This document shows positions 6,724-58,574 of a stretch of 64,000 nucleotides of DNA, one piece after another. The notes under the pieces were generated by a model. The model saw only the letters and a list, made by a program, of their open reading frames with translations, was not told the DNA's origin and did no database searches. The translations under genes were made by a program, and so were the position numbers. How positions within the stretch are numbered: position 1 is the stretch's first letter; every line of letters starts with the position of its first letter. The DNA comes from Aureimonas ureilytica. Its GTDB lineage: Bacteria > Pseudomonadota > Alphaproteobacteria > Rhizobiales > Rhizobiaceae. Where the stretch lies: assembly GCF_001475935.1 (NCBI RefSeq), contig NZ_LDQA01000040.1, positions 1 to 64,000 of the forward strand, written 5' to 3'.

Positions 6724-6744
6724 TCTCCGGGGCGATGAGGCCTC

Positions 6745-6851: not shown

Positions 6852-6912
6852 CTCTCAGGGAACGGCATGAAGCGATCGGCCTCGTGAGCGATATCGGCCG
6901 GCTCGCCGGATG

Positions 6913-40445: not shown

Positions 40446-40455
40446 GGGCGCGGCC

Positions 40456-41337
40456 ATGAGCTTCTTTGTGGAAACCCTGGTCGGCGGCCTCTTCGCGGGC
40501 GTCATGTATGCGCTGGTCGCGATCGGCTTCGTCCTGATCTACAAGGCCTCCGGCGTCTTCAACTTCGCGCAAGGGGCGATGCTCCTCTTTGCCGCGCTCA
40601 CCTTCGTGACGCTGACGGAGCGCGGCGTGCCCTTCGCGCCCGCCTTCGGGCTCACCGCCCTCGTCATGGTCGTCATGGCCTGCGTGATCGAGCGGCTGGT
40701 GCTGCGTCCCTTGCGCAACCGCGACGCGCTAACCCTCTTCATGGCGACGCTCGGCCTCTCCTTCGTGGTCGAGGGCCTCGCCCAACTCCTGATGGGCACC
40801 GACGTCCATATGCTGGATCTCGGCATCGAGGATGTCGGCATCGAGATCGGCGGCATTCTGGTCAGCCAGTTCGACCTCACCGCCGCCGCCATCGCACTCA
40901 TCCTCGTCGCCGTGCTGTCCATCGTCTTCAGTCGCACCAGCATGGGCGTCGCGCTGCGGGCCGTGGCGGACGATACGCTGGCCGCGCAGTCCATCGGCAT
41001 CCGCCTGCCGCTGATCTGGCGCGTGGTCTGGAGCGTCGCGGGCCTCGTCGCCCTCGTCGCCGGGCTTCTCTGGGGCGCGCGGCAGGGCGTTCAGTATTCG
41101 CTCTCGCTGGTCACGCTGAAGGCTCTGCCGGTGCTGATCATCGGCGGCTTCTCCTCCATTCCCGGCGCGATCCTCGCCGGTCTCCTCGTCGGAGCGGCGG
41201 AAGCGCTGGCCGACATCTATCTCGGCCCGCTGGTCGGCGGCGCCGTCTCCCCCTGGTTCGCCTATGTCCTCGCGGTCGCCTTCCTTCTGGTGAGACCGGC
41301 CGGGCTCTTCGGCGATGAAGCCATCGAAAGGGTCTGA
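40456..41337 (+). CDS. LivH-type branched-chain ABC transporter permease
   Basis: 293 residues, about eight membrane helices. LivH features are GLFAGVMYALVAIGFVLIYK then ASGVFNFAQGAMLL, LRPLRNRDALTLFMATLGLS and the cytoplasmic loop TSMGVALRAVADDTLAAQSI. The ATG at 40456 is 10 nt after the LivG-type gene. Partner of the LivM-type permease downstream. Confidence 0.9.
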   Translation: MSFFVETLVGGLFAGVMYALVAIGFVLIYKASGVFNFAQGAMLLFAALTFVTLTERGVPFAPAFGLTALVMVVMACVIERLVLRPLRNRDALTLFMATLGLSFVVEGLAQLLMGTDVHMLDLGIEDVGIEIGGILVSQFDLTAAAIALILVAVLSIVFSRTSMGVALRAVADDTLAAQSIGIRLPLIWRVVWSVAGLVALVAGLLWGARQGVQYSLSLVTLKALPVLIIGGFSSIPGAILAGLLVGAAEALADIYLGPLVGGAVSPWFAYVLAVAFLLVRPAGLFGDEAIERV

Positions 41338-41342
41338 GCCTC

Positions 41343-42404: not shown

Positions 42405-42441
42405 CCCTTCCAGCCATCATCCTATCCAAGGGGGAATTCTC

Positions 42442-43796: not shown

Positions 43797-44732
43797 ATGA
43801 GCCAGACGAAAAAGGGCCGGGGGCAGACCCCTGCGGCGGAGAGCCGGCGAGGGATGTCCGTTCCCGGCGAGGCGACGAGCGCAGGCGATGCAGCGCATCG
43901 TCGAGCATCGGCAACGACGATCGGGGACGGAGAGACCCGGCGGATCGACCCGCAGGGGGCTGCCCCCGGCCCTCAGGGCCTTCTGGAGGTCCAGAATATC
44001 GAGGCGCTCTATGGCGGGGCAGTTCTCGCCGTGCGGGACGTCTCGCTGAAAGTGGGGAAGGGCGCGATCGTCGCCCTTCTCGGCGCCAATGGCGCGGGCA
44101 AGACCACGGTCCTGAAGGCCATCTCGAACCTTCTCGGCCCCGAGCGCGGCGCGGTGAGCCGGGGCGCGATCCGCTGGGACGGGGAGGCGGTCGACCGGCT
44201 TTCGGCGGCCGATCTCGTCGGGCGCGGCGTGGTGCAGGTCCTGGAAGGACGGCGCGTCTTTCCCCAGCTCACCGTCGAGGAAAACATCCTCGCCGGCTCC
44301 TATGGCCGCCGGCCCGGCGCGGCCGAGCGGCGGCGCGATCTCGAACAGGTCTATAGCTGGTTTCCGCGCCTGCGCGACAAGCGCGGCACCAAGGCGGGCC
44401 TGACCTCGGGGGGCGAGCAGCAGATGGTCGCGATCTCGCGCGCCTTGATGACCAAGCCCCGGCTCGTGCTTCTGGACGAGCCCTCGATGGGGCTGGCTCC
44501 CATCGTGGTGCAGGAGATTTTCGAGATCGTCCGCAGCCTCAACACGCAATCGGGCGCGAGCTTTCTCGTGGCCGAACAGAACGCCAACCTCGCGCTGCGC
44601 TACGCCGCCTATGCCTATGTGCTCGAAACCGGGCGCGTCGCGGCCGAGGGAACGGCGGCCGATCTCCTGTCGCGCGGCGACATTCACGACCTCTATTTCG
44701 GCGGAAGCTCCGGCTCCGTCGCCCTTCATTGA
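43797..44732 (+). CDS. LivF-type ABC transporter ATP-binding protein with repeat-encoded N-terminal extension
   Basis: 311 residues; typical LivF proteins have about 235-240. The normal start region LLEVQNIEALYGGAVLA begins at residue 62. Residues about 6-59 are encoded by a repeat element (43814-43972) and are rich in Arg, Ala, Gly and Pro, with no predicted fold. Core motifs are intact: Walker A GANGAGKTT (96-104), signature TSGGEQQM, Walker B LVLLDEPSMGLAP, H-loop AEQNANLA. GGGAG lies 6 nt before the ATG at 43797. A later start after the repeat is not obvious, since no ATG or GTG with a ribosome site precedes residue 62. Confidence 0.85.
   Translation: MSQTKKGRGQTPAAESRRGMSVPGEATSAGDAAHRRASATTIGDGETRRIDPQGAAPGPQGLLEVQNIEALYGGAVLAVRDVSLKVGKGAIVALLGANGAGKTTVLKAISNLLGPERGAVSRGAIRWDGEAVDRLSAADLVGRGVVQVLEGRRVFPQLTVEENILAGSYGRRPGAAERRRDLEQVYSWFPRLRDKRGTKAGLTSGGEQQMVAISRALMTKPRLVLLDEPSMGLAPIVVQEIFEIVRSLNTQSGASFLVAEQNANLALRYAAYAYVLETGRVAAEGTAADLLSRGDIHDLYFGGSSGSVALH
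43814..43972. repeat. Intergenic repeat element, long copy B, inserted in frame in the LivF-type gene
   Basis: The 22-nt arms, GGGCCGGGGGCAG at the left (43814-43826) and its complement ending CCCCCGGCCC at the right (43963-43972), differ by one mismatch over 22 positions. The interior, on the minus strand, aligns along about 78 nt with the copy at 2029-2190. The element is 159 bp, exactly 53 codons, and contains no stop in the LivF frame. Confidence 0.8.
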
Positions 44733-44754
44733 ACCATCGGGAGCCGCGACGGCC

Positions 44755-46011
44755 ATGTTTCATTCCACCATCGAAAGCCCGACCAGCCAGACCGACCTCG
44801 GCTGGGGGCAGGGCCCGAGCCCCGACTACGAGGCGCTCGCCACGCCCTTCCGCCCGATCTTCGCGCGCATTCGCGCGGGCGCGGTGGAGCGGGAGCTGAA
44901 CCGCACGCTGCCCACGCAGGAGATCGGCTGGCTGAAGGAAGCGCGCTTCGGCGCGGTGCGCCTGCCCCGAGCCGAGGGCGGACAGGGGGCGAGCCTGCCC
45001 GATTTCATCAATCTCCTGATCGAACTGTCGGAGGCCGATTCCAACATCACGCAGGCCCTGCGCGGCCATTTCGGCTTCGTGGAAAGCGTCGTGAACTTAG
45101 GCACCGGCCCTTTTCGCGAGCGCTGGGCCGCGCGCATCGCGGCCGGAGATACCGCCGGCAATGCCTGGACGGAGATCGGCGCGGCCTCGATCGAGGGTTT
45201 CTCGACCCATCTCGCCCGCAAGGGCGACGACCTCGTGCTCAATGGCGAGAAATACTACACGACCGGCTCGCTCTTCGCCGACTGGATCGACACCGGAGCC
45301 CGGCGCGAGGACGGCGAGGGCGGCACGGTTCTGGTGCCCCGCCACGCGCCGGGCGTCCATGTGGTGGACGATTGGGACGGGTTCGGCCAGACGCTGACGG
45401 CCAGCGGCACCACCACCTTCACCGATGTCGTGATCGACCCGCTGGATGTCCTCAGCGACGAGGAGAAATTCCGCTACAGCGCGGCCTTCTACCAGATCGT
45501 GCATCTGGCGACGCTGGCCGGCATCGGGCGCGCGCTCGCGGGCGATGCGGCCGCCGCCGTGGGCGCGCGCCGGCGCACCTATACGCACGCCGCCGCCGCG
45601 CGCTCGTCCGAAGACCCGCAGGTGCTTCAGGTGGTCGGGCGCATTCGCGGCGCGGCCTATGCGGCGGGCGCCATCACCCTGCAAGCCGCCCGCGCGCTGG
45701 AGCGCGCCCATGCCGCGCATTTCGGGGGGGATGCGGAAGCCGAAGAGCGCGCCAACAGTCTGGCCGAGCTAGAAACCGCGCAGGCGCAGACGGTGGTCTC
45801 GAACCTCGTTCTCGAGGCCTCGACCATCGTGTTCGACGCGCTGGGGGCCTCGGCCATCCGCAAGCCCGCCGGGCTCGACCGCCATTGGCGCAACGCGCGC
45901 ACGCTGTCCTCGCACAATCCGCGCATCTACAAGGACCGGATCGTCGGCGACTACGCCGTCAACGGCACCCCGCCGCCCTACCAGTGGCGCATCGGCCTGC
46001 CCACGGGCTGA
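44755..46011 (+). CDS. Acyl-CoA dehydrogenase-fold monooxygenase (DszC/SfnB-like)
   Basis: 418 residues. An acyl-CoA dehydrogenase fold: N-terminal helices with LPRAEGGQGASLPDFINLLI, middle beta domain GNAWTEIGAASIEGF then LNGEKYYTTGSLFADWI, and C-terminal GRIRGAAYAAGAITL...LSSHNPRIYKDRIVGDYAVNG. The last segment, and the lack of a clear catalytic glutamate, fit flavin-dependent hydroxylases such as DszC or SfnB rather than true dehydrogenases. It is the last gene of the NtaA-Liv operon, so it may act on the same S- or N-containing substrate before or after the first monooxygenase. Confidence 0.85.
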   Translation: MFHSTIESPTSQTDLGWGQGPSPDYEALATPFRPIFARIRAGAVERELNRTLPTQEIGWLKEARFGAVRLPRAEGGQGASLPDFINLLIELSEADSNITQALRGHFGFVESVVNLGTGPFRERWAARIAAGDTAGNAWTEIGAASIEGFSTHLARKGDDLVLNGEKYYTTGSLFADWIDTGARREDGEGGTVLVPRHAPGVHVVDDWDGFGQTLTASGTTTFTDVVIDPLDVLSDEEKFRYSAAFYQIVHLATLAGIGRALAGDAAAAVGARRRTYTHAAAARSSEDPQVLQVVGRIRGAAYAAGAITLQAARALERAHAAHFGGDAEAEERANSLAELETAQAQTVVSNLVLEASTIVFDALGASAIRKPAGLDRHWRNARTLSSHNPRIYKDRIVGDYAVNGTPPPYQWRIGLPTG

Positions 46012-46050
46012 TCCGTCGGCAATGGGCGTTCGCAGACCGGCTCGCTCTTG

Positions 46051-46668
46051 TCAGCCGGTCTGCTTGTTCGCCGCCATCACCTCGGCCAGCTGCGGATGGC
46101 GACGCATGAGCATGGCGGCGGCGTAGAACTTTGGCGTGTTCGCTTCGAACCAGGGTGTCCCCGGCCACCACCCCACCATCGCGGCGGCGTAGCAATCCAG
46201 CGCCGACGGCTGCTCGCCCAGAAGATAGGGCCCGGTGATCTCCGCCTCTAGCTGGAGATACAAACGCTTGCGATAGGCGTCCGTCGCCGCCTTCAGCTCG
46301 TCGGGCGCGGAGGGGCACCAGCGATCCGGAACATCGCCATAGGTGAAGGTCGGATAGACATTGGCGACCAGCCAGATCAGCCATCGCAGAAAGCGGCGAT
46401 GCTCCGCCGTGCCTCGTGAGGGTGCGAGTTCGGGATGCTGCTCGGCGAGCCAAAGGGCGATGGCGGCGCTTTCCGTCAGAATGCCTCCATCGCCCAGAAC
46501 CAGCACCGGCACCTGCCGCAGCGGGTTGACGCGGGCGAGCCGCTCCTGCGCCTCGCCCGGCTGGTCGAAACCTTCCACATCGACGAACTCGTAAGGCTGC
46601 CGGACCAGAGCCAGCATGGCTTCGGTGATCGCCGAGCCCCAACCACGAACGCCGTAGAGCTTCATCAT
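46051..46668 (-). CDS. Glutathione S-transferase family protein
   Basis: 205 residues from the ATG at 46668; a GTG at 46680 with GGTCGAGG just upstream would add four residues. The thioredoxin-like N-terminal domain contains MKLYGVRGWGSAITEAMLAL then VNPLRQVPVLVLGDGGILTE with the cis-proline and the ESAAIALWL glutathione-binding segment. The C-terminal helical domain has PYLLGEQPSALDCYAAAMVG. The serine near residue 14 may be the glutathione-activating residue. Monocistronic, followed by an acidic small protein gene upstream on the same strand. Confidence 0.88.
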   Translation of the reverse strand: MMKLYGVRGWGSAITEAMLALVRQPYEFVDVEGFDQPGEAQERLARVNPLRQVPVLVLGDGGILTESAAIALWLAEQHPELAPSRGTAEHRRFLRWLIWLVANVYPTFTYGDVPDRWCPSAPDELKAATDAYRKRLYLQLEAEITGPYLLGEQPSALDCYAAAMVGWWPGTPWFEANTPKFYAAAMLMRRHPQLAEVMAANKQTG

Positions 46669-46749
46669 CGGTCTCGTCACCCTCGACCTTGAAATGCGCC
46701 GGACCGGATCGAGGCGCAGGCTGGCGCGCCCTCGACCCGGCTATTGGAC

Positions 46750-46768
46750 ACCGACCGAAGGGGTCGGT
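46750..46768 (-). terminator. Hairpin between the small acidic gene and the GST gene
   Basis: ACCGACC (46750-46756) pairs with GGTCGGT (46762-46768) around a 5-nt loop. It lies just after the stop of the small acidic protein gene (46775). No convincing T-tract follows, so termination efficiency is uncertain. Confidence 0.4.
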
Positions 46769-46774
46769 CGGTTC

Positions 46775-46966
46775 CTAAACCTCGTCCGCGTCTTCCGTGG
46801 AGTCCAGCATCTTGTCCAGCTCGTCCGCGATCAGATCGAGCTGTTCGCGGGTGGCGTTCAATTCCAGCGTCGCGCCGCTGTCGTCTTCGATATGCAACCG
46901 GGCGGACTGGCCGTCCTTGCCTGCCACGATGCGGAACTGAGCCAGAGTCTGTGTCGCGTTCGCCAT
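46775..46966 (-). CDS. Small acidic hypothetical protein
   Basis: 63 residues, MANATQTLAQFRIVAGKDGQ then SARLHIEDDSGATLELNATR and a strongly acidic tail ending DSTEDADEV. AGAGAGG upstream of the ATG is a good ribosome-binding site. It may form two beta strands and an amphipathic helix, but I do not recognise a family. The longer frame upstream crosses a region without coding character, so I chose this start. Confidence 0.68.
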   Translation of the reverse strand: MANATQTLAQFRIVAGKDGQSARLHIEDDSGATLELNATREQLDLIADELDKMLDSTEDADEV

Positions 46967-47522
46967 GAATGCCTCTCTTGATGGAAAGGCGGAACGCGCA
47001 ACATCGCTCATGGCTCCGGCGCTTCGCTCCGCCCGATGCCGTCCTGGCAAACGATCGAGCCGCCGCGAGCTTCGGCCCTGGATCGGACGGGGCTCTCGTT
47101 GGAATTGCGCGCTCGCGCGGGCTCCGTCCCGCCATTCAGCGCGCGTCCGGCAGATGCGCTTGGCCGCGCGCAGTCGCCCGGTGAGACGCTGAGACAAGTC
47201 TGCGATGTATCAGGCCGATCCGCTTTCCGCCACAATAAGGCGGGGTGAAGACCGGGAGGGCTTGGAAGCCGCGCGCCGAACAGGCGAGCGGCTCGGCGTG
47301 TCCGGACGATCCACCATCCCAAGCATGGAAAACCGCCGGCATTCAGGGATCGCGAGTGGCCAGTAGCATATCACGGACTGGCCGGGGGCCACGGTCCCGC
47401 ACGCGAGAGATGAAAGCGGGTGCGGCTGGGCTGCGCAGTCAAGCGGGCGACGCAGCGGGCTCGCTGATGGCTCGGGCGCGCGGGCTTGTTCGCTCGCCCC
47501 GGCTCTGAAGGCTGGCCCTGCC
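46967..47522. other. Non-coding gap of about 550 bp
   Basis: GC-rich, no ORF with coding character on either strand, no strong palindrome. It separates the small acidic gene (minus) from the MFS gene (plus) and must contain both promoters. I see no remnants of a recognisable gene. Confidence 0.4.
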
Positions 47523-49964
47523 ATGACCATCGCTCCCGCCATCCAAGCCGCACCCAGCGCCGGCCCGCGCTGGACGCTGCGCTTGCGCTTCGCGCTCGTG
47601 GCCCTGACCGTTCTGGTGCTCGCCCAGCTCCTGTCGGGCGTTCTCACCGTGTCGGCCATTCGCAAGACCGCCTTCGAGGGAACGGTCACGGCGGTGCGCA
47701 TCGTCGGGCATGACTGGTCCTTCCGCATCCAGAATTCGCTGCGCTTCGGCAAGCCCATCACCCAGATGTTCGGGCTGCCGGAAATGCTGGCCGGCATCCG
47801 TTCCGACCTGCCCTTCCTGTCCGCTGCTCTGGTGACCCTGCCCGATGGCGCGATGGTGGAAAGCAATCCGCCGGGCGGCCTGCCCGCCGGCCTAGGCCCG
47901 CTCGTCGCCGAAAAGCTCAAGGCTTCGGCGGCAAAGGGGCTGACACCGGCGAAGATCGGCGACACGCATGTCTTCGTCCTCCCCGTTTCGGGAGCCGGCA
48001 ACCGCCTGGCGGGGGCGCTGGTGATGCTGGTGCCGGAGGCCGCGATCGCACAGGCGACCGCCCGACCGGTGAGCGATGCCGTGACCTCGCTGATCGTCGC
48101 GAGTGCTGCGGGCGCGCTTGCGCTGTTTCTGGCGGCGAGCGTTCTGCCCATCGGCGCGGACGGCACGATCAGCCGCTGGAAGCTGCTCCTCGTGCCGGCG
48201 CTGGTTCTCGTTCTGGCGCAGGGCGGTGCGTCCTGGCACAATATCGTCACCTTCCGCGACGCCTATGTGTGGGCGGCGACTGAGAATGTGCAGCGCTCGG
48301 TGGATCGTCTGGGCACCGACCTGCAGCGCCTCGTGGACAAGGGCGTTCGGCTGGACCGCCTGTCCGATTATGCCGCGCCCTTCGGGCGCATGGCCGCCGA
48401 CATTCCCGAACTCGCCTCCGTCCAGCTTGTGGACGGCACGGGCCGCGCCATCGCCACCCTCGACGCCACGCACGAGGCGACCAGCAGCCGCCCGGCCATC
48501 GCCTATGAGATCGTGACGCCGGGCGACGCCCGCCCGGTCGCGCGCCTCAGCGCCAGCCTGTCCGACACCGCGATCGGGGAGGGCGTGCGCCACCGCGCGC
48601 TCGACGCCGGCACGGTGCTTCTGACCTCGGCCCTGTTCGGCTTCGAGCTTCTCGTCCTGTTCGGCATCCTGATGCGCCGGCTCGCCGCGCGCGCCGAGGG
48701 AACGGGCGCGGTGGACCGCGACGGGCATCATCTCCTCGCCCGACCCGCTTCGTTCCTCCTGGTCTTCGGCTGGGCGCTGCCCCTGTCCTTCGTGCCGCTC
48801 CAGATGGGCGCGCTCGCCGCCGAGCCATTGTTCGGCCTGTCGCGCGCCGTGACGCTCGCCCTGCCGATCTCGGCCGAAATGGGCTGCGCGCTCGTCACGG
48901 CGCTGATCGCGGGCGTGCTGACGGATCGGCGCGGCTGGCATATTCCCTTCGTGCTCGGCGGCCTCGTCTGCGCGGCAGGCGCGCTGGCGGGAACGCTCGC
49001 CACCGGCCCCCTGTCCTATATCGGCGCGCGCGCCGTGGTGGGCCTCGGATACGGCCTCGCCTGGATGGGCATTCAGGGCTATGTCTTCTCCTGGTCCAGC
49101 CCGCGCACCCGCACCCAGGCCATCGCCAATCTCGTCGCCGGCATTTTCGCGGGCCAGATCTGCGGCAATGTGACGGGCGCGATGCTCGCCGATCAGATCG
49201 GCTTTTCCTCGGTCTTCACCGTCGCGGCGCTTCTGGGCCTTGCGCCCGTGCTTTTCGCGTTTGCCTTCATGCGCGCCTATTTCGGCCGCCCGGTCACCAG
49301 CCCGAGCGCCCCGGCCGCCGCGCCCGTGCCCGTGCCCCTCGCGCCGGACGGGGGCTCGGCGCTGGGCGGGCTCTTGAAGGATCGCAACTTTCTCGCGCTG
49401 CTGCTGCTCAGCGTCGTGCCCTTCTCGGTCGCGCAGGTCGGGCTCCTCTACTACACGCTGCCGGTCTACCTGTCGCAGCAGGGGATCGAGCAGGGCAATA
49501 TCGGCCGCATCATGATGATCTACGGCCTGTCGGTCATCTATATCGCGCCGCTTCTCGGCCGCTGGGTGGACCGGCACGTGCGCAAGAAGCCCTTCATCGT
49601 CATGGGCGGGCTGCTCGGCGGTCTCGGCCTCGCTTTCACCTATCTCGACATCGGCCTCTTCGCGCTGGTCGCCTCGGTGTTCCTTCTGGGGCTGGCGAGC
49701 AGCCTAGGCGGCCCCGCGCAGTCGAGCTTCGCCTTGCATCTGCCGAGCGTCCAGCGCCTCGGCACGGGCCGCGCCATGGGCATCCAGCGAGCCGCCGACA
49801 AGCTCGGCCAGATGATTGGCCCTCTGGCCGTCGGCGCGCTGTTCACGTTTCTGGGCACACGCGACGGGCTCGCCGTCACCGGCCTCTACTATCTCGGCTC
49901 GACGCTTCTGTTCTTTCTGATCGCGCGCGACCATGCGAGCCCCGCTCGAAAGGGCGCCGCCTGA
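47523..49964 (+). CDS. MFS transporter with two N-terminal extracytoplasmic sensor-like domains
   Basis: 813 residues, twice the usual MFS size. Predicted architecture: helix 1 (about 22-45), an extracytoplasmic domain (about 46-185), helices 2 and 3 (about 186-236), a second extracytoplasmic domain (about 237-361), helix 4 (362-385), then a 12-helix MFS module from about residue 408. Typical MFS pieces are VVGLGYGLAWMGIQGYVFSW and the C-half loop LLGRWVDRHVRKKPFIV. The two extra domains resemble single-Cache ligand-binding domains in size and position. It is translationally coupled (TGATATG) to a glutamate-cysteine-ligase-like gene. Substrate unknown. Confidence 0.8.
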   Translation: MTIAPAIQAAPSAGPRWTLRLRFALVALTVLVLAQLLSGVLTVSAIRKTAFEGTVTAVRIVGHDWSFRIQNSLRFGKPITQMFGLPEMLAGIRSDLPFLSAALVTLPDGAMVESNPPGGLPAGLGPLVAEKLKASAAKGLTPAKIGDTHVFVLPVSGAGNRLAGALVMLVPEAAIAQATARPVSDAVTSLIVASAAGALALFLAASVLPIGADGTISRWKLLLVPALVLVLAQGGASWHNIVTFRDAYVWAATENVQRSVDRLGTDLQRLVDKGVRLDRLSDYAAPFGRMAADIPELASVQLVDGTGRAIATLDATHEATSSRPAIAYEIVTPGDARPVARLSASLSDTAIGEGVRHRALDAGTVLLTSALFGFELLVLFGILMRRLAARAEGTGAVDRDGHHLLARPASFLLVFGWALPLSFVPLQMGALAAEPLFGLSRAVTLALPISAEMGCALVTALIAGVLTDRRGWHIPFVLGGLVCAAGALAGTLATGPLSYIGARAVVGLGYGLAWMGIQGYVFSWSSPRTRTQAIANLVAGIFAGQICGNVTGAMLADQIGFSSVFTVAALLGLAPVLFAFAFMRAYFGRPVTSPSAPAAAPVPVPLAPDGGSALGGLLKDRNFLALLLLSVVPFSVAQVGLLYYTLPVYLSQQGIEQGNIGRIMMIYGLSVIYIAPLLGRWVDRHVRKKPFIVMGGLLGGLGLAFTYLDIGLFALVASVFLLGLASSLGGPAQSSFALHLPSVQRLGTGRAMGIQRAADKLGQMIGPLAVGALFTFLGTRDGLAVTGLYYLGSTLLFFLIARDHASPARKGAA

Positions 49965-49965
49965 T

Positions 49966-51531
49966 ATGGCCGACATGCGAACCCACCCGACGCTCGGCCT
50001 CGAACTGGAAATGCCGGTTGTGGATCTTGGCTCCGGCGCGAGCTTCGACGCGCGCGAGCTGTTTCCCCGTCTCTACGAGGCGCGTCGCCGGCGGGGCGAG
50101 GCGGTGACGCCGGTTCTGGCCTCGGGCAGCCTGATCGGCGTCGCGGGGCCATTGGTCGTGTCCTCGGTGGACAACGGGTTCAACAATCTGGAAAGCGCCA
50201 TCGGCATTGTCGGGGGGCCGGATCGGCCGGGCTCGAACCTCAACGATCTGGCTTGCCTCGTGCAGCGCGAGCTGAGCGAACTCGCCGCCACCCTCGGTGA
50301 ACTCGGCGCGGGCATCGCCAACCTCTCCGAACACCCTTCGACGCCGATCAGCGAAAGCTTCTACCGCGCGATGCGCGCTCCCAAGCCGATCTACGATTAC
50401 TGGCGCGGGGCGCGCGGCTGGCGGCACGAGGTCGGCATGGACGCCAAAGCCCAGAACGGGCCGACCACGGGCGTCGAGGCCACCCATGCGGTGGAGGCGC
50501 TGAATCTGGCGCTTCTGGCCGCGCCCGCCCTGATCGCGATCTTCGCCAACAGCCCGTTCGAGGCGGGCGAGCCGACCGGCTTCAAGGAAAACCGGCTGCA
50601 GATCTGGACGCGCATGTTCGCCGAGCCCAACTTCGCCGGCGACCGCACGACCCATCGCCCGCCCGTGCGGCCCTTCGAGGATCTGGCGCATTATGTTCGC
50701 TGGATGTTCGAGGGCAACCGCGCCATGCAGGCGCTGCCGCTGGGCAACAATTCCTACAAGGGCTTTGGCGAACTCGCCCGCATGGACGGCGATCCCGCGC
50801 TTCTGACCTTCCTGCGCGCGCCCTCCTGGGCGGGACGCCGGCTGCGCGACGGGAAGGTGGTGGAGGTCACGCCCAGCCTTCGCGATCTGGAAAGCCTTCA
50901 GTTCTCGCAGTTCCTCGACGCGCGCATCCGCTTCCGCTTCGACACGGAGCCGAGCGTGGACGCCTTCTTCGAGGCGCTGGACGCCGGGCGCATGGAAAAG
51001 CTGTTCGCGGATCATTGCCAATCCCTCTATATCGAGGGCCGGGCGGCGGGCGCGAACTTCCCCGACGCCGAGCTGTGCGACCACGACGATCCGCTCGTGC
51101 CGGCCTCGGTGGTGATGGCTCCTTCGGCGCTCCAGAAAGGGCTGCAAGCCAGTCCCGGCAGCCTGCGCCGCCTGTCCGATCTCTTGCCCTGGCGCGATCT
51201 GCGCCTCGCGCGGGAGGAGGCGATCCGCCACGGCCTGTCCGGGCGCGCCGGCCCCCTGTCGCTCGCGCGGTTCGCGCGGGCCGTTCTGGAGGAAGCGGAG
51301 GCGGGACTTGCCCCCAGCGAGCGCTGGATGCTGGCCTATGTCCGGCATGTGCTGGACACCGGCCGCAACGGGGCCGACCGCGCCATCGCCGCCTTCGAGC
51401 GCGGAACGGGGCCTCGCGCCGCGCGCCTCGATGATCTCGTCCAGGCGCGCACGATGCACCTCGTGCCGCCCGTGCCCTTTCCCCAGCGCGACCGGGCGCC
51501 GGAGAGCGCCGGGCTTGCCAAAAGCGCCTGA
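49966..51531 (+). CDS. Glutamate-cysteine ligase family protein (GCS2-type)
   Basis: 521 residues. The opening LGLELEMPVVDLGSG and the segments RRGEAVTPVLASGS, IANLSEHPSTPISESFYRAM and GWRHEVGMDAKAQNGPTTGV suggest the ATP-grasp-like GCS2 fold used by carboxylate-amine ligases such as EgtA-type glutamate-cysteine ligases. The NSPFEAGEPTGFKENRLQIW stretch is a typical GCS2 motif. It starts 1 nt after the MFS stop, so the two are co-expressed: the ligase may make or modify the compound exported or imported by the MFS protein. The exact amine partner is unknown. Confidence 0.8.
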   Translation: MADMRTHPTLGLELEMPVVDLGSGASFDARELFPRLYEARRRRGEAVTPVLASGSLIGVAGPLVVSSVDNGFNNLESAIGIVGGPDRPGSNLNDLACLVQRELSELAATLGELGAGIANLSEHPSTPISESFYRAMRAPKPIYDYWRGARGWRHEVGMDAKAQNGPTTGVEATHAVEALNLALLAAPALIAIFANSPFEAGEPTGFKENRLQIWTRMFAEPNFAGDRTTHRPPVRPFEDLAHYVRWMFEGNRAMQALPLGNNSYKGFGELARMDGDPALLTFLRAPSWAGRRLRDGKVVEVTPSLRDLESLQFSQFLDARIRFRFDTEPSVDAFFEALDAGRMEKLFADHCQSLYIEGRAAGANFPDAELCDHDDPLVPASVVMAPSALQKGLQASPGSLRRLSDLLPWRDLRLAREEAIRHGLSGRAGPLSLARFARAVLEEAEAGLAPSERWMLAYVRHVLDTGRNGADRAIAAFERGTGPRAARLDDLVQARTMHLVPPVPFPQRDRAPESAGLAKSA

Positions 51532-51575
51532 CGCGAGCTTCGGTCAGCCGATCCCGTGAGGTCTTGTCGGGCGCG

Positions 51576-52784
51576 TCAGGGCGCGCGTTGCGCGAGGTCC
51601 GTGCCGAAGATCTCGTCGCTCGCCAAGAGAATATCGACGGACGGATCGTAGCCGATCTCGCCGGCGGTGCGCAGATTGAGCGCGATCTTGGCGGGCGCCT
51701 GCCAGACCTGCGGCAGGTCGCGGGGCTTGGCGCCGTTGAAGATGCGCGCGATCGTCTCGGCGTGGAAGCGGCCGACATATAGAAAGTCGGATTGCGCGAC
51801 GCTCATCAGCGCGCCGAGCTTCACCTCCGACTCGCCCGCCATGGAGAAGGTCGGAAGGTCCCGGTCGATCAGCGGCGCGAGGCTTTTGGGTAGGCTCGCC
51901 TCGGTCAGGCCGCGATGAACGGTGAGATAGACCGCGTCCGCCTTGGCCGCGATCTCGCCGTAGCAGGCCTCGACCTTCGCCTCGGCCTCGGCCTGCGGGA
52001 CGTTGTTGAAGGGCGCGAAGCACGGCACGATCTCGAAGCCGCGCTCGCGCGCGATGCGCTCGATATCGTCCACGGCGGCGAAGGTGCGCCCTTCCGGGCT
52101 GTTCTCGTAGACGAGGCCGAGCTTCTTGAAGTGGAAGATGTCGTCGAACAGCTCCACCTGCCGGGCGTAGCGCTGCGGCTCCACCTTGGCGTTCAGATGG
52201 TCGTGGCCTGAATCGGTCTCGCTCTTGATGATCTTGGAGCCGATCGGGTCGCTGGTGGAGGCGACCACCACGGGCGTCGAGATCGCCTCCGTCGAGAGGT
52301 CCTGCCCGGCCCAGGTGCCGAGCGCCAGCATGAGGTCGATGTCGCCGCGCGTCGTCAGCCGGTCCAGAAGCTCGGCCTTCACGAGCGGGCGCTTCTCCTT
52401 GTCGAAATTGCCCGCCGCGTAATAGGCGTCGGCGGGAAACTCCACATAGTCGCTCGCCGCATGGGCCGAGAGCCAGCGCCAGAAACCGCCCGGCTCGGGA
52501 TTGTTGCCGACGGGCAGTTCGGTCGGCTTGATCCAGCCGATCGCCATGAGGCCGCGCACCGTGGATTTGAGGATCGTCTCGTAATCCTTGTACTGGCCGC
52601 CCTCGTAATAGCCGATGCGCCATTTCGTGCCGTCCGGCTTCAGGCGGGGCTCGGAGGGAAACACGCGCGCCTGCGCGGGCGCTGGGGCCGCCGCGTCCGG
52701 CGCGGGCGTCTGGGCCTCAGCCGCGACACTCGTCAAAAGGGCGAGGCCGAGCCAGATGGCCGTGAGGCGAAGCGAGCGGATCAT
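51576..52784 (-). CDS. ABC-type periplasmic substrate-binding protein (PF04392-like)
   Basis: 402 residues with a signal peptide (to about residue 24, SVAAEA). The mature protein contains WRIGYYEGGQYKDYETILKS and ILASDEIFGTD-like segments, plus LALGTWAGQDLSTEAISTPV and VVASTSDPIGSKI, the PF04392 pattern of two lobes linked by a hinge. There is no ABC permease or ATPase next to it; instead its ATG overlaps the stop of a SpoIIE phosphatase gene. It may act as a periplasmic sensor partner rather than a transporter receptor. Confidence 0.8.
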   Translation of the reverse strand: MIRSLRLTAIWLGLALLTSVAAEAQTPAPDAAAPAPAQARVFPSEPRLKPDGTKWRIGYYEGGQYKDYETILKSTVRGLMAIGWIKPTELPVGNNPEPGGFWRWLSAHAASDYVEFPADAYYAAGNFDKEKRPLVKAELLDRLTTRGDIDLMLALGTWAGQDLSTEAISTPVVVASTSDPIGSKIIKSETDSGHDHLNAKVEPQRYARQVELFDDIFHFKKLGLVYENSPEGRTFAAVDDIERIARERGFEIVPCFAPFNNVPQAEAEAKVEACYGEIAAKADAVYLTVHRGLTEASLPKSLAPLIDRDLPTFSMAGESEVKLGALMSVAQSDFLYVGRFHAETIARIFNGAKPRDLPQVWQAPAKIALNLRTAGEIGYDPSVDILLASDEIFGTDLAQRAP

Positions 52785-54850
52785 GACGACCTCTTGGACG
52801 GCTGGTGGAAGCGAAGGGCGACGAGCGTGATGTCGTCGGATTGCGGCGTGCCGCCGGCATGGGCCTGCACGTCGGCCATGATCCGCTGCACCAGCATTTC
52901 GGTCGGCAGGAACGGGTCCTGCGCCTCCAGAAGCTGAAGGAGGCGCTCGTCCTCGTACAGCTCGTCGCGCGCGTTCATCGCCTCCGTCACGCCGTCCGTG
53001 TAGAGAACCAGCGTCTCGCCGGGCTTGAGATGCGTGGCGAGCGGCTCGTAGTCCATGCCCTCGACCACGCCCAGCGCCGGGCCGCTGATCGGACGAAGGC
53101 ACTCGACGCGCCCGCCCTCGCGGATCACCAGCGGGGGATTGTGCCCGCCATTGGCATAGCGGATCTCGCCCGTCAGACAATCGAGAACGCCGATCAGGCT
53201 GGTGACGAAGATCGAATTGGGATTGTCGCTCGCCAGCGTGTCGTTGACGGCGGCCATCATCTGCCAGGGATCGGGGAAGCGGTCGGCCGCCGATTTGATC
53301 AGCGTCTTGGTGATCGCCATGAACAAGGCGGCCGGCACGCCCTTGCCCGCCACATCGCCGATCGTGAAGCAGAGATGGCGGTCGTCGATGAAGTAGAAAT
53401 CATAGAGATCGCCGCCGACCTCCTTGGCCGAGACGAGCGCGGCGTGAATGTCGATCTCGGAGCGGTCGGGAAAGGCGGGGAAGATCTTCGGCAGGAGACC
53501 GAGCTGAATATCGCGCGCGACGTTCAACTCGCCCTCGATGCGCTCGCGCTCCTGCGTGACGCGCATCACGGTCTGGACGTTGCGATAAAGCGAATCTTCC
53601 ATGAAGTGGAACGCGCTGGCGAGCCGCCCGATCTCGTCCCGCCCTTCGGGCCGTCGCTTGGCCAGAGCTTCGGGCGGGGCCTGCGTGAAGTCGGTCTGCG
53701 GCAGGGCGCGGGCCCGGTGCGTCAGCGCCACCAGGGGCCGGCTGATGCGCTGCGCCAGGAACCAGGCGAGAACCGCCGCCAGAAGACTGCCGCCGGCAAA
53801 GACGAGGCCCTGGCTCAGGATGAGGTCCTGCGCGGGCTCGGCCAGCGCGGCGGAGGAAACGATCGCGGCGACATACCAGTCGAGCGCCTTCAACCGGAAG
53901 ACCTGCGCTTCCGCGCCCTGTTCCGGCCCCGCCGAGGGCAGGGGGGCGAGGCGCGAGGGCGCGTCGCCATCGGAGGCCATGGCTTTCAGTTCGCTTAAGA
54001 CGGCAGGCGCCATCCAGCCGTCCTCGCCGCCCTTGGGCGCGACGACCGGCCGCCCGCTGCCGTCGAACACGAAGACGAAACCGTTGCCCGCCATCTGGAG
54101 CGAGCCGAGGCTGGAGCGCAGGCGCTCCACCAGCTCGGCGCGGCGCACATCCGTTTCGCGTTGGAGATCGGCGACATCGCCGACAATGCCGATCATCCAG
54201 CCCCAGCGGGGAAAGGGCACGAAGAGCCCGTATTTCGGCTCGGTCGCCTCGCCCTTCATCGCCTTCCAGGCATAGGTGAGGAAGCTGGAGCCGTAGAGTT
54301 CGCTGTCGCTCCAGGCGGTCTGCGTCACGCTTCGGCCGCGAATGTCGCGAAAGCCCGAGAGATCCTGGCCCACCATCGCGGCGTCGGGATAGACCACGGC
54401 GCGGCCCGCCCGGTCGAACACGAAACTGTATTCGCCCGCCACCGGCGAGAGGCCGGCCAGCCAGTCGAGCGCGTTGGCGCGCGCGGCCTCGTCGCTGGTT
54501 CTGGCGCGCTGCGCCTGGGCGGCCAGCGTGTCGAGCGTCGAGCGCACGGTCTGGCCGAATTGGCGGAAGGCAGCCTTGCGATCCTGGATCGTGCCGACCT
54601 TGTCCGACAGGAGTTGGAGATACTGGCTGCGGATGGCGAGTTCCGCCATCTGGAGGACATTCTCGACGGAGCGCTGTTCGGCATCCACCATGGCCGAGCG
54701 CACGGCGCGCTGCGAATAGGCCATGATGCCGCCCGCCATGAGCGCCAGAATGGCGATGACGCCGACGAAGATCTTGACCCTGAGGCTGTTCACGCACCGC
54801 ATCCAGAAGGGGAGACCCGTTCTTCTAGACGCAGCCGGACGAGAAAGCAT
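52781..54850 (-). CDS. SpoIIE-family PP2C phosphatase with cache and HAMP domains
   Basis: 689 residues. One membrane helix at about 27-46, a long periplasmic cache domain (about 50-340, with YSFVFDRAGRAVVYPD and NGFVFVFDGSGRPVV, a double-cache pattern), a second helix (about 350-372), HAMP and linker, and the PP2C domain (about 460-680). Catalytic metal ligands are in EVGGDLYDFYF, GDVAGKGVPAALFMA, LYTDGVTEA and SDDITLVAL. Such receptors dephosphorylate anti-sigma antagonists or relatives in response to a small ligand. An alternative ATG at 54802 is possible. Confidence 0.9.
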   Translation of the reverse strand: MLSRPAASRRTGLPFWMRCVNSLRVKIFVGVIAILALMAGGIMAYSQRAVRSAMVDAEQRSVENVLQMAELAIRSQYLQLLSDKVGTIQDRKAAFRQFGQTVRSTLDTLAAQAQRARTSDEAARANALDWLAGLSPVAGEYSFVFDRAGRAVVYPDAAMVGQDLSGFRDIRGRSVTQTAWSDSELYGSSFLTYAWKAMKGEATEPKYGLFVPFPRWGWMIGIVGDVADLQRETDVRRAELVERLRSSLGSLQMAGNGFVFVFDGSGRPVVAPKGGEDGWMAPAVLSELKAMASDGDAPSRLAPLPSAGPEQGAEAQVFRLKALDWYVAAIVSSAALAEPAQDLILSQGLVFAGGSLLAAVLAWFLAQRISRPLVALTHRARALPQTDFTQAPPEALAKRRPEGRDEIGRLASAFHFMEDSLYRNVQTVMRVTQERERIEGELNVARDIQLGLLPKIFPAFPDRSEIDIHAALVSAKEVGGDLYDFYFIDDRHLCFTIGDVAGKGVPAALFMAITKTLIKSAADRFPDPWQMMAAVNDTLASDNPNSIFVTSLIGVLDCLTGEIRYANGGHNPPLVIREGGRVECLRPISGPALGVVEGMDYEPLATHLKPGETLVLYTDGVTEAMNARDELYEDERLLQLLEAQDPFLPTEMLVQRIMADVQAHAGGTPQSDDITLVALRFHQPSKRSS

Positions 54851-54920
54851 TCCCGAAACGCCGGCAGAACTTGACCCTGCGTCTCACGGCGCGCGTTTTG
54901 CGGTGGGCGAGAGCGTGGGC

Positions 54921-56075
54921 CTACTGCCCCTGCATCCAGCGATTGAGCACGGAGCCGAGTTTGGGAACGGGTTTCGGCTGGCCGGGCTGCGGGCGATGGC
55001 GTGCGCGCAACTCGCTGGGCGAATAGCCGAACTCGCGGACGAAGGCGCGCCGGAAGCTGCGCAGATTGGGAATGCCCCAGCGCTGCGCGATCTCATCGAT
55101 CGTGCCGCCCGTCTGGGCGATGTCCTCATGCGCGCCTTGCAGGCGTTGCTGCCGGATGATCGCGGCGATGTTCATCTGGCTGCCCATCAGCCGATAGAGC
55201 TGGGATCGCGACAAGGCGAATTCCCGGCAGATCGCCGCCGGGTCGAGAGCGGGATCGCCGAGATGCTCGGTGATATACTGGCGCACCCGCAGTCCCTTGT
55301 CCTCGCGCTGCGCGGGGCGGAGCGGCGGCGGGCCGCCCCCGAAGCAGCTTGCAACGAAGCCGAGGCTGGTTCTGGCGATCTGCTCGGCGCGCCGGCCCGC
55401 CAGCGGTTCGGGCAGCGCCAGCATGGATCGCAGGCGATGGCCGAGCAGAACAGCCGGCACGGAGTCCGGTGCGAAGACCCGCCCGTTCAGCGTCTCGCGC
55501 CAGGCCTTGCAGCTCTCCAGGGCGGCGAGCGGAACGAGCAGCGCCAGCCAGTCCGCCCCGAGGATTGCAACATCCATCAGGCTGGTCAGCCGCGTGATGC
55601 AGACCGCGCCGGGCTCGACCTCGAACCGTCGGCCGTTCGCCGAGCCCGTGACATGGCCCTGCTCGATGAGATTGATCAGCGCGTAATCCGTCTCGATCCG
55701 CGCGGCCATGTCGGCGTCGCGGATCAGGCGGAAATCGCTGGCCGTGACGCGCAGCGTCATGAGGTCGCCGATCGCGCGCGACTGGAACCGGCCGGTGAAG
55801 GCCTCGCGATCCTCCGGTCGCACCTCGACGCGTCCGCTGCCCGACATCACCTCCTGCCAGGCCGCGATGCGCCACTCGGCATCCCCGCTGCTCCGGTCGA
55901 GCTGCAGGCGAATGTTCGATCCCTGGGCGGCTCTTTCCGGTCTGACACCCCCCTCGGGCGGACAGAACGTCTCAAAATGCGCCTCATGCGGGTACGCACT
56001 GTCCGATGCCGCACCGGCAAGATTGACCTTCTCTGCGCCGTCATGTTTTGTCGGTGTCACAGAATGTTTCGGCAC
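54921..56075 (-). CDS. AraC family transcriptional regulator
   Basis: 384 residues. The C-terminal double helix-turn-helix is clear: DPAAICREFALSRSQLYRLM then TIDEIAQRWGIPNLRSFRRA and FVREFGYSPSELRARHR. The N-terminal 250 residues would bind the inducer; the family AraC_binding_2-like segment starts WQEVMSGSGRVEVR. It faces the SpoIIE gene convergently but both are on the minus strand, with 70 bp between. A second AraC gene lies upstream on the other strand. Confidence 0.88.
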   Translation of the reverse strand: MPKHSVTPTKHDGAEKVNLAGAASDSAYPHEAHFETFCPPEGGVRPERAAQGSNIRLQLDRSSGDAEWRIAAWQEVMSGSGRVEVRPEDREAFTGRFQSRAIGDLMTLRVTASDFRLIRDADMAARIETDYALINLIEQGHVTGSANGRRFEVEPGAVCITRLTSLMDVAILGADWLALLVPLAALESCKAWRETLNGRVFAPDSVPAVLLGHRLRSMLALPEPLAGRRAEQIARTSLGFVASCFGGGPPPLRPAQREDKGLRVRQYITEHLGDPALDPAAICREFALSRSQLYRLMGSQMNIAAIIRQQRLQGAHEDIAQTGGTIDEIAQRWGIPNLRSFRRAFVREFGYSPSELRARHRPQPGQPKPVPKLGSVLNRWMQGQ

Positions 56076-56503
56076 GAATGTCTCGATTCTGAAGTAAACG
56101 ACAGAGAATTAAAACAAAGTCACGAATTCCTGGGAGGGATTCGGCTAAATCGCGATCAGTTTATCTTGGTCTAATCTCTATATATCAGAACAGGATATAT
56201 GTCGATCTGGCATGGCGCGAATTGTCTGGACGATCAACCAGCACAACACGCTTTCGTCTGCGGCATATTCGCATTCGATCAAGATGTCGATTTCCGTTCT
56301 GAACTGAACGCTGAGGAAACCTGGAGCGCGATAAATCAATAGGGGCGATCAATACGCGCCCTATTCAATAGTCAAAATGAGAAATTCTGTTTGCGGCTTG
56401 GCCGGGTTTGTCGTGCGTCTGTCCTCCGGCCTCGGCCGGATGCGCATGCCCTATCGAACCCGCCTGCGATTGGCCCGCACATGCCGGGGGAGTGCAGCGT
56501 TTC
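56076..56503. promoter_or_regulatory. AT-rich divergent region between two AraC regulators
   Basis: About 430 bp, markedly more AT-rich than the rest. AATAGGGGCG (56338-56347) pairs with CGCCCTATT (56357-56365), a near-perfect hairpin. TATATATC-like and GATATAT segments around 56179-56200 could include promoters. No ORF was seen. Confidence 0.45.
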
Positions 56504-57499
56504 ATGCGGTTCGACGAGTTTACGACCGGTCCCTTTTCGCCTCGCGAGCGATGCGATGCCTGGCAGAGACAGCCGTTTCCCTGCGTCGCGGGATTGATGG
56601 AGATCGATCCGGCCGACGGCGCGTTCTCCTCGCGCGCGCGAACCTTCGCCTTGGGATCGCTCTTTCTCAGCGACATCCATCATTCGGCGCGGACCTGCCG
56701 CCGAACCGACGAGGCGATCGGGTCGGACGGGTTCCATCCCGTCGTCCTTTCCGTGTGCCTCAGCGGGCGCTATGGCGGGCAGACACAGGCGGGCCGTTAT
56801 CGGGGCGGTCCGGGCTGTGTTCTCGTTCTGGATTTCGCGTCCGCCTTCCAGCACGTGTCCACCAACAGCCACAGCGTTCTTCTCGTCTTCGAGCGAAGCG
56901 AAATCCAGCGCCATATTCCCCGGATCGACGGGTTGCACGGCCTCGTACTGTCCCGCAAGGACGCCGAGCCTCTGGTTCGCCAAGTTGTCGGCCTGCTGCA
57001 GCAATTGCCCGGCATGAGCGACGAGGCGGGGGCGGAAGCCGGCGCGGCGCTGACGGACACGATTCTCTCCTCGCTCAACCAGACGGGTTCGCTGTCGGCG
57101 GCCGAAGACGCCCGTCTGTCCCAGCTGCGCGCCGACGCTCTCTGGATCATCCGGCAGCGTTACCGCGAGCCCGACCTCGATGTGGCGCGGGTCGCAGCGC
57201 TGGTGCGCGCCTCGCGCTCGACGCTCTACCGCGCCTTCGCGGAGGAGGAGGGCATTCTCGCCCATGTCACGAACCTGCGGATCGAGCAGGCGGCGATAGC
57301 CCTGCGGGACACGAAAGACAGACGGCTGATCCGCGAGATCGCGCTGGCGGTCGGCTTCGATCAGGTGAGCAGCTTCAACCGGGCCTTCCGCAAGCGACAC
57401 GATTGCACGCCGCGCGACTGGCGCGAACAGTTCCGCCGATCCGCGCCCGCCAGCCCCTACCCGTCGGTCTCGGACGAGCCGCAGCTCAGACGCGCCTGA
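56504..57499 (+). CDS. AraC family transcriptional regulator (second)
   Basis: 331 residues from the ATG at 56504; GGGGGAG lies about 13 nt upstream, and a longer open frame upstream is poorly supported. The double helix-turn-helix is visible as DVARVAALVRASRSTLYRAF then LIREIAL then AVGFDQVSSFNRAFRKRHDC. The N-terminal region contains AraC_binding_2-like CLSGRYGGQTQAGRYRGGPG then CVLVLDFASAFQHV. The divergent neighbour is also AraC-type, so the pair may cross-regulate. Confidence 0.87.
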   Translation: MRFDEFTTGPFSPRERCDAWQRQPFPCVAGLMEIDPADGAFSSRARTFALGSLFLSDIHHSARTCRRTDEAIGSDGFHPVVLSVCLSGRYGGQTQAGRYRGGPGCVLVLDFASAFQHVSTNSHSVLLVFERSEIQRHIPRIDGLHGLVLSRKDAEPLVRQVVGLLQQLPGMSDEAGAEAGAALTDTILSSLNQTGSLSAAEDARLSQLRADALWIIRQRYREPDLDVARVAALVRASRSTLYRAFAEEEGILAHVTNLRIEQAAIALRDTKDRRLIREIALAVGFDQVSSFNRAFRKRHDCTPRDWREQFRRSAPASPYPSVSDEPQLRRA

Positions 57500-57626
57500 C
57501 GCCCCGCTCGCGCACGCACATGTATGGGTCGAACCACGGGCGCGGAGAGACCAGTCAAGACGGCCTCACGCAGACGATAGCCTGACGCTTTTCCGACGCC
57601 GAAACGGCTCGCAGACGAGGATACGC

Positions 57627-58310
57627 ATGTCCGACAAGATCTACTACATGCCCTATGATCCCAGCCATCCCAGTTTCATCTGCGCCCAGTTCGAGTACGG
57701 GACGGCCGGTGGCGCGGACATGAACAAGCTCATGAAGGACGTCGATCACGAGGCGTCGAAGGGCAATATCGCCATTCCCGTCTGGTATCAGCCCGGTCGG
57801 CGCAACGCCTTCGTGATGTCGCTGGATCGGGAGAGCGTCTACATCCGGGGCCACGGGATGGCCGGCTTCCGGTCCATCGAGGGCGGCCGGGGAGGGGAGC
57901 GGATCGACTATGTCACGATGGTGGACCGGCTGATCGAAAGCGGTCTTCCGAAATCCTTCTCCGGAAAGATCAAGCTCTTCAACTGCCACAGCGCGGAGTC
58001 GGGTTTGGTGGGGTCCGACCCCGAATGCGTCGGGCATCCGTTCGCGCGCCTCGTGGCCGACGAGATGTACAAGCGGGGATACAGGGCCTGCACCTTCTAC
58101 GGCTATGTCGGCCGGATCGACTCCTTCGTCAAGGACGGCTCCGGCGGCAAGCACCACTATGTCCGCGATATCGTCAACGGCAAGATGGAGGAAATCGGGC
58201 GCGTGAGCCAGGGGCGCATCCAGTTCAAGCCCAACCCGATCCCGGTTTACAGCCCCGTTGCCTTGCTGGCGCCGAAGAAGCCTGGCGGCTTCCTCGCGCG
58301 CTTCCGGTGA
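57627..58310 (+). CDS. Caspase-fold (clan CD, C80-like) orphan protein
   Basis: 227 residues. VYIRGHGMAG (His76-Gly77) and KIKLFNCHSAESG (Cys120) have the spacing and flanking hydrophobic strands of the His-Gly / Ala-Cys dyad of caspase-fold peptidases; the region FARLVADEMYKRGYRACTF then YGYVGRIDSF follows as in RTX cysteine-protease (C80) domains. It has no signal peptide, no membrane segment and no toxin partner nearby. GAGGATACGC supports the ATG at 57627. Other clan-CD-like families (Stv-type adhesin domain, CHAT) are possible. Confidence 0.55.
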   Translation: MSDKIYYMPYDPSHPSFICAQFEYGTAGGADMNKLMKDVDHEASKGNIAIPVWYQPGRRNAFVMSLDRESVYIRGHGMAGFRSIEGGRGGERIDYVTMVDRLIESGLPKSFSGKIKLFNCHSAESGLVGSDPECVGHPFARLVADEMYKRGYRACTFYGYVGRIDSFVKDGSGGKHHYVRDIVNGKMEEIGRVSQGRIQFKPNPIPVYSPVALLAPKKPGGFLARFR

Positions 58311-58574
58311 CTGTGCGGACGCGTTCGCAGATCTGAGAACCCGTTCGCAAGCGCGGCCGGGTCGGCCTCGCAGGCCACCCCGCGCGGGCTTTCGCCCGGC
58401 GCCTCCATGGCCGAGGGGTTGGCCTGAGCCGCTTGCCCGCAGCGGGGACGCCTCGATGGTGCCAGGACGCCAGCGCCCCGGCAAAACGCGACATATGACG
58501 CGGCGGCCCCTTGCGCGGGGGGCATTGGGATGGTTTGAGGCGGCTTCCTCCTCGCATCGACCTGGAATTCCCTG
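58311..58574. other. GC-rich gap before the ABC-F gene
   Basis: 264 bp with no convincing ORF. CGGCCGGGTCGGCCTCGCAG near 58350 weakly recalls the repeat-family core, but arms are not evident. Promoter for the ABC-F gene expected here. Confidence 0.3.

Follow-up and report, generated by a model that had tools for sequence, protein, structure and literature searches.

A four-gene block of Aureimonas ureilytica as a candidate circuit for the transport and sensing of a small molecule

Why should a transporter, a carboxylate-amine ligase, a periplasmic binding protein and a membrane phosphatase share one short block of DNA, and do they act together? The question is raised by positions 47523-54850 of the window, which is the whole 64,000-nucleotide stretch of Aureimonas ureilytica analysed here (contig NZ_LDQA01000040.1, positions 1 to 64,000, assembly GCF_001475935.1), part of a genome of 5.0 Mb. 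An initial annotation, made from the letters alone, had suggested that the four genes could form a ligand-gated transport and signalling system. It is well supported that they are one unit and, because they recur together in distant bacteria, they probably make up one circuit. The computed basis for this view is the co-occurrence of the genes, the discreteness of the block, the Cache fold of the first sensor module of the transporter, the duplication of that module, a fusion of transporter and SpoIIE phosphatase, and the exchange of enzyme and output genes between lineages. The linkage of transport and signalling is supported by co-occurrence and also favoured by the fusion at locus L039 (related loci bear L numbers throughout), and ligand gating is something that we infer.

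The four-gene block

The plus strand carries the gene for an 813-residue transporter of the major facilitator superfamily (MFS; 47523-49964; Pfam MFS_1, E 6e-40), here termed Cache-MFS in view of its AlphaFold models, the Cache fold of its first module and a profile comparison of its two modules. It is followed on the same strand by the gene for a GCS2-family carboxylate-amine ligase of 521 residues (49966-51531; PF04107, E 2e-16), whose start is most likely the ATG at 49966, one base past the MFS stop, rather than the overlapping upstream ATG at 49933. Beyond a convergent intergenic gap of 44 bp between the stops of the ligase and binding-protein genes (51532-51575, assigned to no strand), the minus strand encodes a periplasmic substrate-binding protein (SBP) of the ABC_sub_bind family (51576-52784, 402 residues; PF04392, E 1.6e-14) and a dCache-HAMP-SpoIIE phosphatase of the PP2C type (52781-54850, 689 residues; PF07228, E 5e-52; dCache_2, E 1e-19; HAMP, E 6e-6; catalytic motifs present). 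The SBP start and the SpoIIE stop overlap by four nucleotides (ATGA). Gene coordinates and Pfam matches agree with the initial annotation, which had described four such genes within 47523-54850, the coupling of transporter and ligase, the 44 bp separating the 3' ends of the convergent pair, and a cache-HAMP-PP2C phosphatase.

Recurrence in distant bacteria

A genome collection was scanned with an alignment of the MFS protein, which gave 123 confirmed relatives, and the best 80 loci were kept. Gene presence was scored within 7 kb of the MFS gene by profiles built from the window and its relatives. The SBP is present in 73 of the 80 loci, SpoIIE in 54, GCS2 in 28 and alanine racemase in 26; among the seven loci in which the SBP is absent, six have the MFS gene at most 1.7 kb from a contig end, and only L106 genuinely lacks it. 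The full set of four genes is seen in 23 loci, counting two with frame-broken genes (L042, L079), one with a SpoIIE fragment at the contig end (L055) and one whose fused SpoIIE was entered by hand as present (L039). These loci come from Aureimonas, Pseudothauera, a Burkholderiaceae metagenome-assembled genome (MAG), Giesbergeria, a Competibacteraceae MAG, Telmatospirillum, Azospirillum, a MAG labelled Synechococcaceae, Verticiella, Achromobacter, Bordetella, an Alcaligenaceae bacterium, Desulfonatronum and Desulfonatronovibrio. The neighbourhood conservation that the initial annotation had proposed to examine therefore reaches beyond Aureimonas as far as Azospirillum, Pseudothauera, Bordetella and Desulfonatronum, and its two gene pairs do co-occur in other genomes. 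In four loci (L036, L037, L038, L040) the genes lie on one strand in the order GCS2-SpoIIE-SBP-MFS.

The distance matrices of the four proteins, compared across 20 loci with the window included, correlate with r 0.94-0.97, and for every pair none of 2000 permutations gave a value as high; L042 and L079 were removed by hand from this comparison, and the fused L039 as well as L055 fell below its score limit. In an even sample of 150 genomes across the window's order, a Cache-MFS relative (E 1e-20) was present in 15 in addition to its own genome, with the SBP no further than 7 kb away in all 15 and SpoIIE in 10. The samples are not independent, because several contigs, matched by their length, are shared between them (L101/L022, L104/L023 and L107/L026 for the order sample, L032/G169 and L033/G160 for the genus sample, L134/L139 for a plasmid of Aureimonas sp. 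AU20). Several genes near the related loci had no bearing on the question once scanned (secretin, HEAT repeat, DUF748, sulfate permease) and were dropped.

Within Aureimonas, which supplies the closest relatives, the four genes form a discrete block. Over the stretch compared (44001-60000), the window and loci L032 (A. ureilytica, MFS 83%), L033 (A. pseudogalii) and L134 share DNA similarity at about 47567-54804, with 77-85% identity and an end on both sides; the sole similarity outside it consists of two short patches in AraC genes shared with L032. The ligase was found in 4 of 21 genus genomes, the window's own included, and, among 397 genomes sampled from the phylum, in 1 (again its own; E 1e-25), so the block is accessory. 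Aureimonas sp. AU20 carries it on plasmid pAU20a (L134 = L139), where the genes are annotated as MFS transporter, glutamate-cysteine ligase family protein, ABC transporter substrate binding protein and SpoIIE family protein phosphatase.

An exchangeable enzyme beside a constant core

The ligase belongs to the GCS2 fold, scoring 60.6 bits to PF04107 against a cut-off of 21. It shares this domain with EgtA, YbdK and plant-type glutamate-cysteine ligases, and its closest solved relatives are the plant glutamate-cysteine ligases 2gwc and 6gmo, over a short conserved stretch (the profile used had 26 rows, 7 of them a Desulfobacterota protein of ~530 residues discussed below). It differs from EgtA and YbdK in lying far under their NCBIfam cut-offs (29.9 vs 370.8 and 25.2 vs 176.4 bits), and it is below cut-off for all NCBIfam subfamilies listed. 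Judged by its sequence, it is a distinct GCS2 subfamily tied to this cluster.

Relatives of the block come in three layouts. The GCS2 type is as in the window. The ATP-grasp type (10 loci over both samples) combines a D-Ala-D-Ala-ligase-like enzyme with a two-Cache MFS protein, an SBP, and a histidine kinase or a PAS-GGDEF-EAL protein. The GNAT type (18 loci, 3 of them repeats of a contig present in both samples) has an acetyltransferase, an SBP, a one-Cache MFS protein and stand-alone sensor proteins, with alanine racemase in 7 of the 18 and SpoIIE in 17, mostly together with STAS and HATPase_c_2 genes. In Desulfobacterota loci the place of the enzyme is often taken by a diaminopimelate-epimerase-like gene and a ~530-residue protein of unassigned family. 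The latter, found in Desulfobacterota and one gammaproteobacterial locus (L045 11443-13050, L070 3666-5294, L080 10787-12403), has common NHHG and ARG..C.GG stretches; it was tried as a GCS2 relative ("GCSd") and dropped, and it is not counted as a ligase, because its alignment to GCS2 reaches 13-16% identity and Pfam is blank for the one member scanned, that of L045. Among the occupants of the enzyme slot are amide-forming or amino-acid-racemising families of unrelated folds. All three layouts have SBP and Cache-MFS in common; around this near-invariant core, enzymes and outputs are exchangeable.

The Cache-MFS protein

Ahead of the transporter core, both AlphaFold models (mean pLDDT 85.8 for the whole protein and 89.2 for residues 1-394) place two units, each a transmembrane (TM) helix, a mixed alpha/beta domain and a second TM helix; hydropathy concurs. 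The four added helices, and with them the two domains outside the cytoplasm, are those that the initial annotation had noticed. Module 1 (residues ~16-207) is modelled as a Cache/PDC fold between its two TM helices, matching the extracellular domain of WalK (4ywz) with Z 13.8 and rmsd 3.0 over 133 residues, followed by amino-acid chemoreceptor domains, CitA and DcuS. By Foldseek alone, Cache matches of module 1 are at E 1e-3 or weaker, save for an integrative WalK model. Module 2 (residues ~218-391) has a similar order of elements in the model and is a putative Cache module by its homology with module 1. By hhalign the two modules match at 98.9% (E 3e-17), the alignment spanning TM helices and domain, and in profile comparison they also align with a stand-alone sensor, Z, of the GNAT-type loci (98.0% and 97.8%). 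Because the modules align in this way, the protein looks like a transporter fused to a duplicated TM-Cache-TM sensor module.

The core (residues ~398-806) is a member of the MFS, with 137.7 bits to MFS_1 against a cut-off of 33.4 and, in the AlphaFold model, Z 40.5 and rmsd 3.1 over 376 residues to SLC37A4; the matches listed in a fold search with the whole model concern the core only. Its fold neighbours include VMAT, SLC37A4, OxlT, SotB, NorA and the D-galactonate symporter. No NCBIfam MFS model reaches its cut-off with this protein, the best being a multidrug-resistance model (41.6 bits vs 131), and the MFS protein of a GNAT-type relative matches Tet efflux models, likewise below cut-off. 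Over the first 449 residues there is no match to any Pfam family, Cache families included, at a threshold as loose as E 1. Membership of a standard MFS subfamily was therefore rejected, and the N-terminal domains did not prove to be standard parts of a known one, an outcome that the initial annotation had named as refuting.

The GNAT-type locus L018 holds a second Cache-MFS-like protein, Y (5309-7030, minus strand, 574 residues), with a weak MFS match, and weaker equivalents occur elsewhere; these second proteins are possibly non-transporting receptors. Plasmid pDEVAL01 of Nitratidesulfovibrio vulgaris RCH1 (L138 6009-12094) has a related pair, in which an SBP gene overlaps that of a 1012-residue MFS protein, whose N-terminal part of ~590 residues has no Pfam match, and a 595-residue protein with no Pfam match is also present.

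The binding protein

The SBP is the sole ABC_sub_bind match in the window genome, and its N-terminus is signal-like when judged by eye. Its one NCBIfam match is the tryptophan SBP TrpX (NF041285), at 52.3 bits against an equivalog cut-off of 390, and its profile matches solved ABC_sub_bind-type structures (3lkv, 6hni, 3lft), none of them ligand-named. Neither the four genes nor three neighbours scanned along with them include an ABC permease or ATPase, so that a TrpXYZ-type importer is not indicated, and none of the neighbours scanned in related loci, which were not every neighbour, has an ABC domain. The statement of the initial annotation that the SBP comes without any ABC transporter is therefore true of the cluster.

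The phosphatase and its outputs

Catalytic aspartate motifs mark SpoIIE/PP2C phosphatases, and the window protein has them (GGDLYD, GDVAGKG, DDIT) along with 177 bits to PF07228 against a cut-off of 25. Among 63 SpoIIE open reading frames (ORFs), a strict motif expression proved too narrow (two motifs in 15); a looser one found GGD..D in 56, DD.T in 55, GD[VAI]..[KH]G in 34 and all three in 31. As the middle motif was found in just 34, it varies between layouts. The SiaA model gives 61.6 bits against an equivalog cut-off of 700.

STAS and HATPase_c_2 proteins are the usual components of partner switching, and genes for them lie inside 7 kb of the MFS gene in 35 and 34 of the 80 loci, respectively; in the window no linked STAS or RsbW-like gene was found. 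The output varies among the relatives between SpoIIE, histidine kinase and GGDEF/EAL proteins. At L039, a Candidatus Competibacteraceae MAG and thus one metagenome assembly, a single ORF of 1505 residues carries MFS, dCache, HAMP and SpoIIE; the related L042 has MFS and SpoIIE parts in the same order with broken frames. At L081 the SpoIIE protein is fused to HATPase_c_2. The fusions at L039 and L081 favour direct cooperation.

A proposed circuit and its alternatives

The reading that we favour, although we stop short of calling it probable, is a circuit that transports and senses a small molecule derived from amino acids: the ligase would make it, the MFS protein would export it, and the SBP and the Cache domains would read it back. 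In such a circuit the cytoplasmic GCS2 ligase would join two amino-acid-like substrates, its slot being filled in sister systems by an ATP-grasp or GNAT enzyme, partly with an alanine racemase. The MFS core would export the product, which the periplasmic SBP would bind outside, and the loaded SBP, the free ligand or both would engage the two Cache modules of the MFS protein and the dCache domain of the phosphatase. The HAMP-linked PP2C domain would then switch and, where RsbW/RsbV-like partners exist, dephosphorylate a STAS-type protein. We infer here the identity of the ligand, export rather than import, docking of the SBP and the target of the phosphatase. A bolder and more doubtful version would have an unrecognised class of circuit, in which the Cache modules of the MFS protein dock the loaded SBP and so couple transport to the sensing of a self-made amino-acid amide; it would be a transceptor with its own autoinducer synthase, whose enzyme and output cartridges are exchanged between lineages around the constant core of SBP and Cache-MFS.

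Several observations weigh against the proposed circuit. In some gammaproteobacterial loci the ligase gives way to an alpha/beta hydrolase together with a histidine phosphatase, and in one locus to a ketopantoate-hydroxymethyltransferase-like gene. Among 14 Achromobacter loci, 10 show no GCS2 in the stretch covered (L052-L054, L056, L059-L061, L068, L071, L083), yet keep MFS, SBP, SpoIIE and racemase; two have GCS2 (L047, L057) and two are cut at the MFS gene. The ligase is thus dispensable in those 10 or sited elsewhere. As the fold neighbours of the core take in OxlT and the D-galactonate symporter too, transport may run in either direction. As for the phosphatase target, an RsbW-like query found no match in the window genome (a single query, by itself of little weight), all 20 HATPase_c_2 matches there sit in frames of at least 356 residues, and the frames that hold the 3 STAS matches are 496-552 residues long; since these frames are long, no stand-alone STAS or HATPase_c_2 partner is evident, STAS_2 (PF13466) not having been searched. 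Finally, the correlated protein distances stem partly from shared genome ancestry.

An external origin of the molecule would turn the proposal around: the SBP would hand an amino-acid derivative to Cache-MFS, acting as importer or UhpC-like receptor, the ligase and racemase would metabolise it, and SpoIIE would report its presence. This would suit the constancy of the SBP-MFS pair, the highest of all (73/80 and 15/15), the amino-acid (tryptophan) SBP as the only NCBIfam match of the binding protein, the two fold neighbours just named, and the second Cache-MFS-like protein at L018 with its weaker matches elsewhere. However, sequence models put the core nearest efflux types, albeit below cut-off, a ligase would be an unusual first catabolic step, and we know of no MFS protein that uses an SBP. 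Uptake or reception seems to us rather unlikely, though it is the main rival. The efflux-like matches would in turn fit a protective response: SBP and Cache domains would sense a toxic amino-acid analogue from outside, the ligase would glutamylate it and the MFS protein would expel it, while SpoIIE would induce the response. The conjugating enzymes point the same way, as does the scattered occurrence of an accessory block that 4 of 21 genus genomes carry, the window's own included, and that lies once on a plasmid. Yet racemases have no obvious need in detoxification, and the linked STAS and HATPase_c_2 genes, like the histidine kinase or GGDEF/EAL outputs of sister loci, suit a wider regulation than that of one pump. 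We consider protection a distinctly weaker prospect.

The convergent arrangement in this single window, and nothing else, would speak for an ordinary MFS-ligase pair that chances to lie beside an ordinary SBP-phosphatase pair. At E 0.001 the window genome has one match to the MFS protein, the single ABC_sub_bind match and just two to SpoIIE, numbers so low that these genes are unlikely to have met here by chance. With recurrence in distant lineages, correlated protein distances and DNA similarity confined to the block, chance adjacency was rejected and is hardly credible.

Relation to known systems

In LuxP-LuxQ, ChvE-VirA and TorT-TorS a periplasmic SBP without its own transporter serves a membrane sensor with a periplasmic sensor domain. 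The block resembles these in its transporter-less SBP and its membrane sensors with periplasmic domains, on which the SBP would dock; it differs in that an MFS protein and a PP2C phosphatase (kinase or GGDEF/EAL protein in relatives) would be the partners of the SBP, with an enzyme gene in addition. TRAP and TTT transporters combine an SBP with a secondary transporter, as the block putatively does; their transporter fold is unrelated to the MFS fold of the window. RsbU and BtrU are partner-switching phosphatases. With them and with SiaA the window shares a SpoIIE protein with HAMP and periplasmic sensor, and many relatives have STAS and HATPase_c_2 genes nearby; unlike them, the window has no linked STAS or RsbW-like gene found, and the SiaA model lies far below cut-off.

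UhpC ties a transporter fold to signalling. The SLC5-STAC sensor kinases CbrA, CrbS and RpuS are reported to link such a fold to a signalling output (PMC9100948). The likeness of the block to both lies in that link; unlike them it has Cache modules before the MFS core, an SBP, and a phosphatase that is usually a separate gene. By analogy, the circuit would work like SBP-coupled receptors and transporter-sensors, with no claim to the full definition of either. On the sequence evidence its parts fall in named families, except for the ~530-residue Desulfobacterota protein and the sensor modules, and the partnership of SBP and MFS protein stands a fair chance of being a class of its own, new to description.

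The initial annotation took the system to be undescribed. Searches of an open-access library turned up no description of the four-gene combination; the key comparative-genomics survey, that of amidoligases by Iyer et al. (2009), lies outside this coverage and may mention parts. If the proposal is true, an MFS protein would join the short list of transporters working with binding proteins, amide-forming and racemase enzymes would be tied to a periplasmic sensing apparatus of their own that feeds three kinds of output, and a small-molecule family not yet known would be indicated. Four genes annotated separately in Aureimonas sp. AU20 are thereby given a joint, testable hypothesis.

Neighbouring genes

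About 8 kb from the block lies a set of branched-chain-amino-acid-type ABC genes (39417-43776), comprising an ATPase, two permeases and a Peripla_BP_6 protein, that follows a luciferase-like monooxygenase. It has this binding protein of its own, and on its side the DNA similarity of the relatives stops at the four genes within the stretch compared; the set is not part of the conserved block.

In AU20 the cluster adjoins genes for a hybrid histidine kinase, a receiver protein and a receiver-SpoIIE protein (L139 13984-19047). The window genome has a SpoIIE match on another contig (L137 6378-10732) with similar-looking neighbours, which were not Pfam-scanned, and a comparable set occurs in A. ureilytica (L135 765-4112).

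Two AraC-family regulators lie next to the block in the window, at 54921-56075 (minus strand) and 56408-57499 (plus strand), the first of which shares the strand of the SpoIIE gene and ends 70 bp ahead of it. In L032, L033 and L134, AraC-type genes about 43% identical to one or other of them flank the MFS side of the cluster; the cluster as found in Aureimonas may therefore include an AraC regulator.

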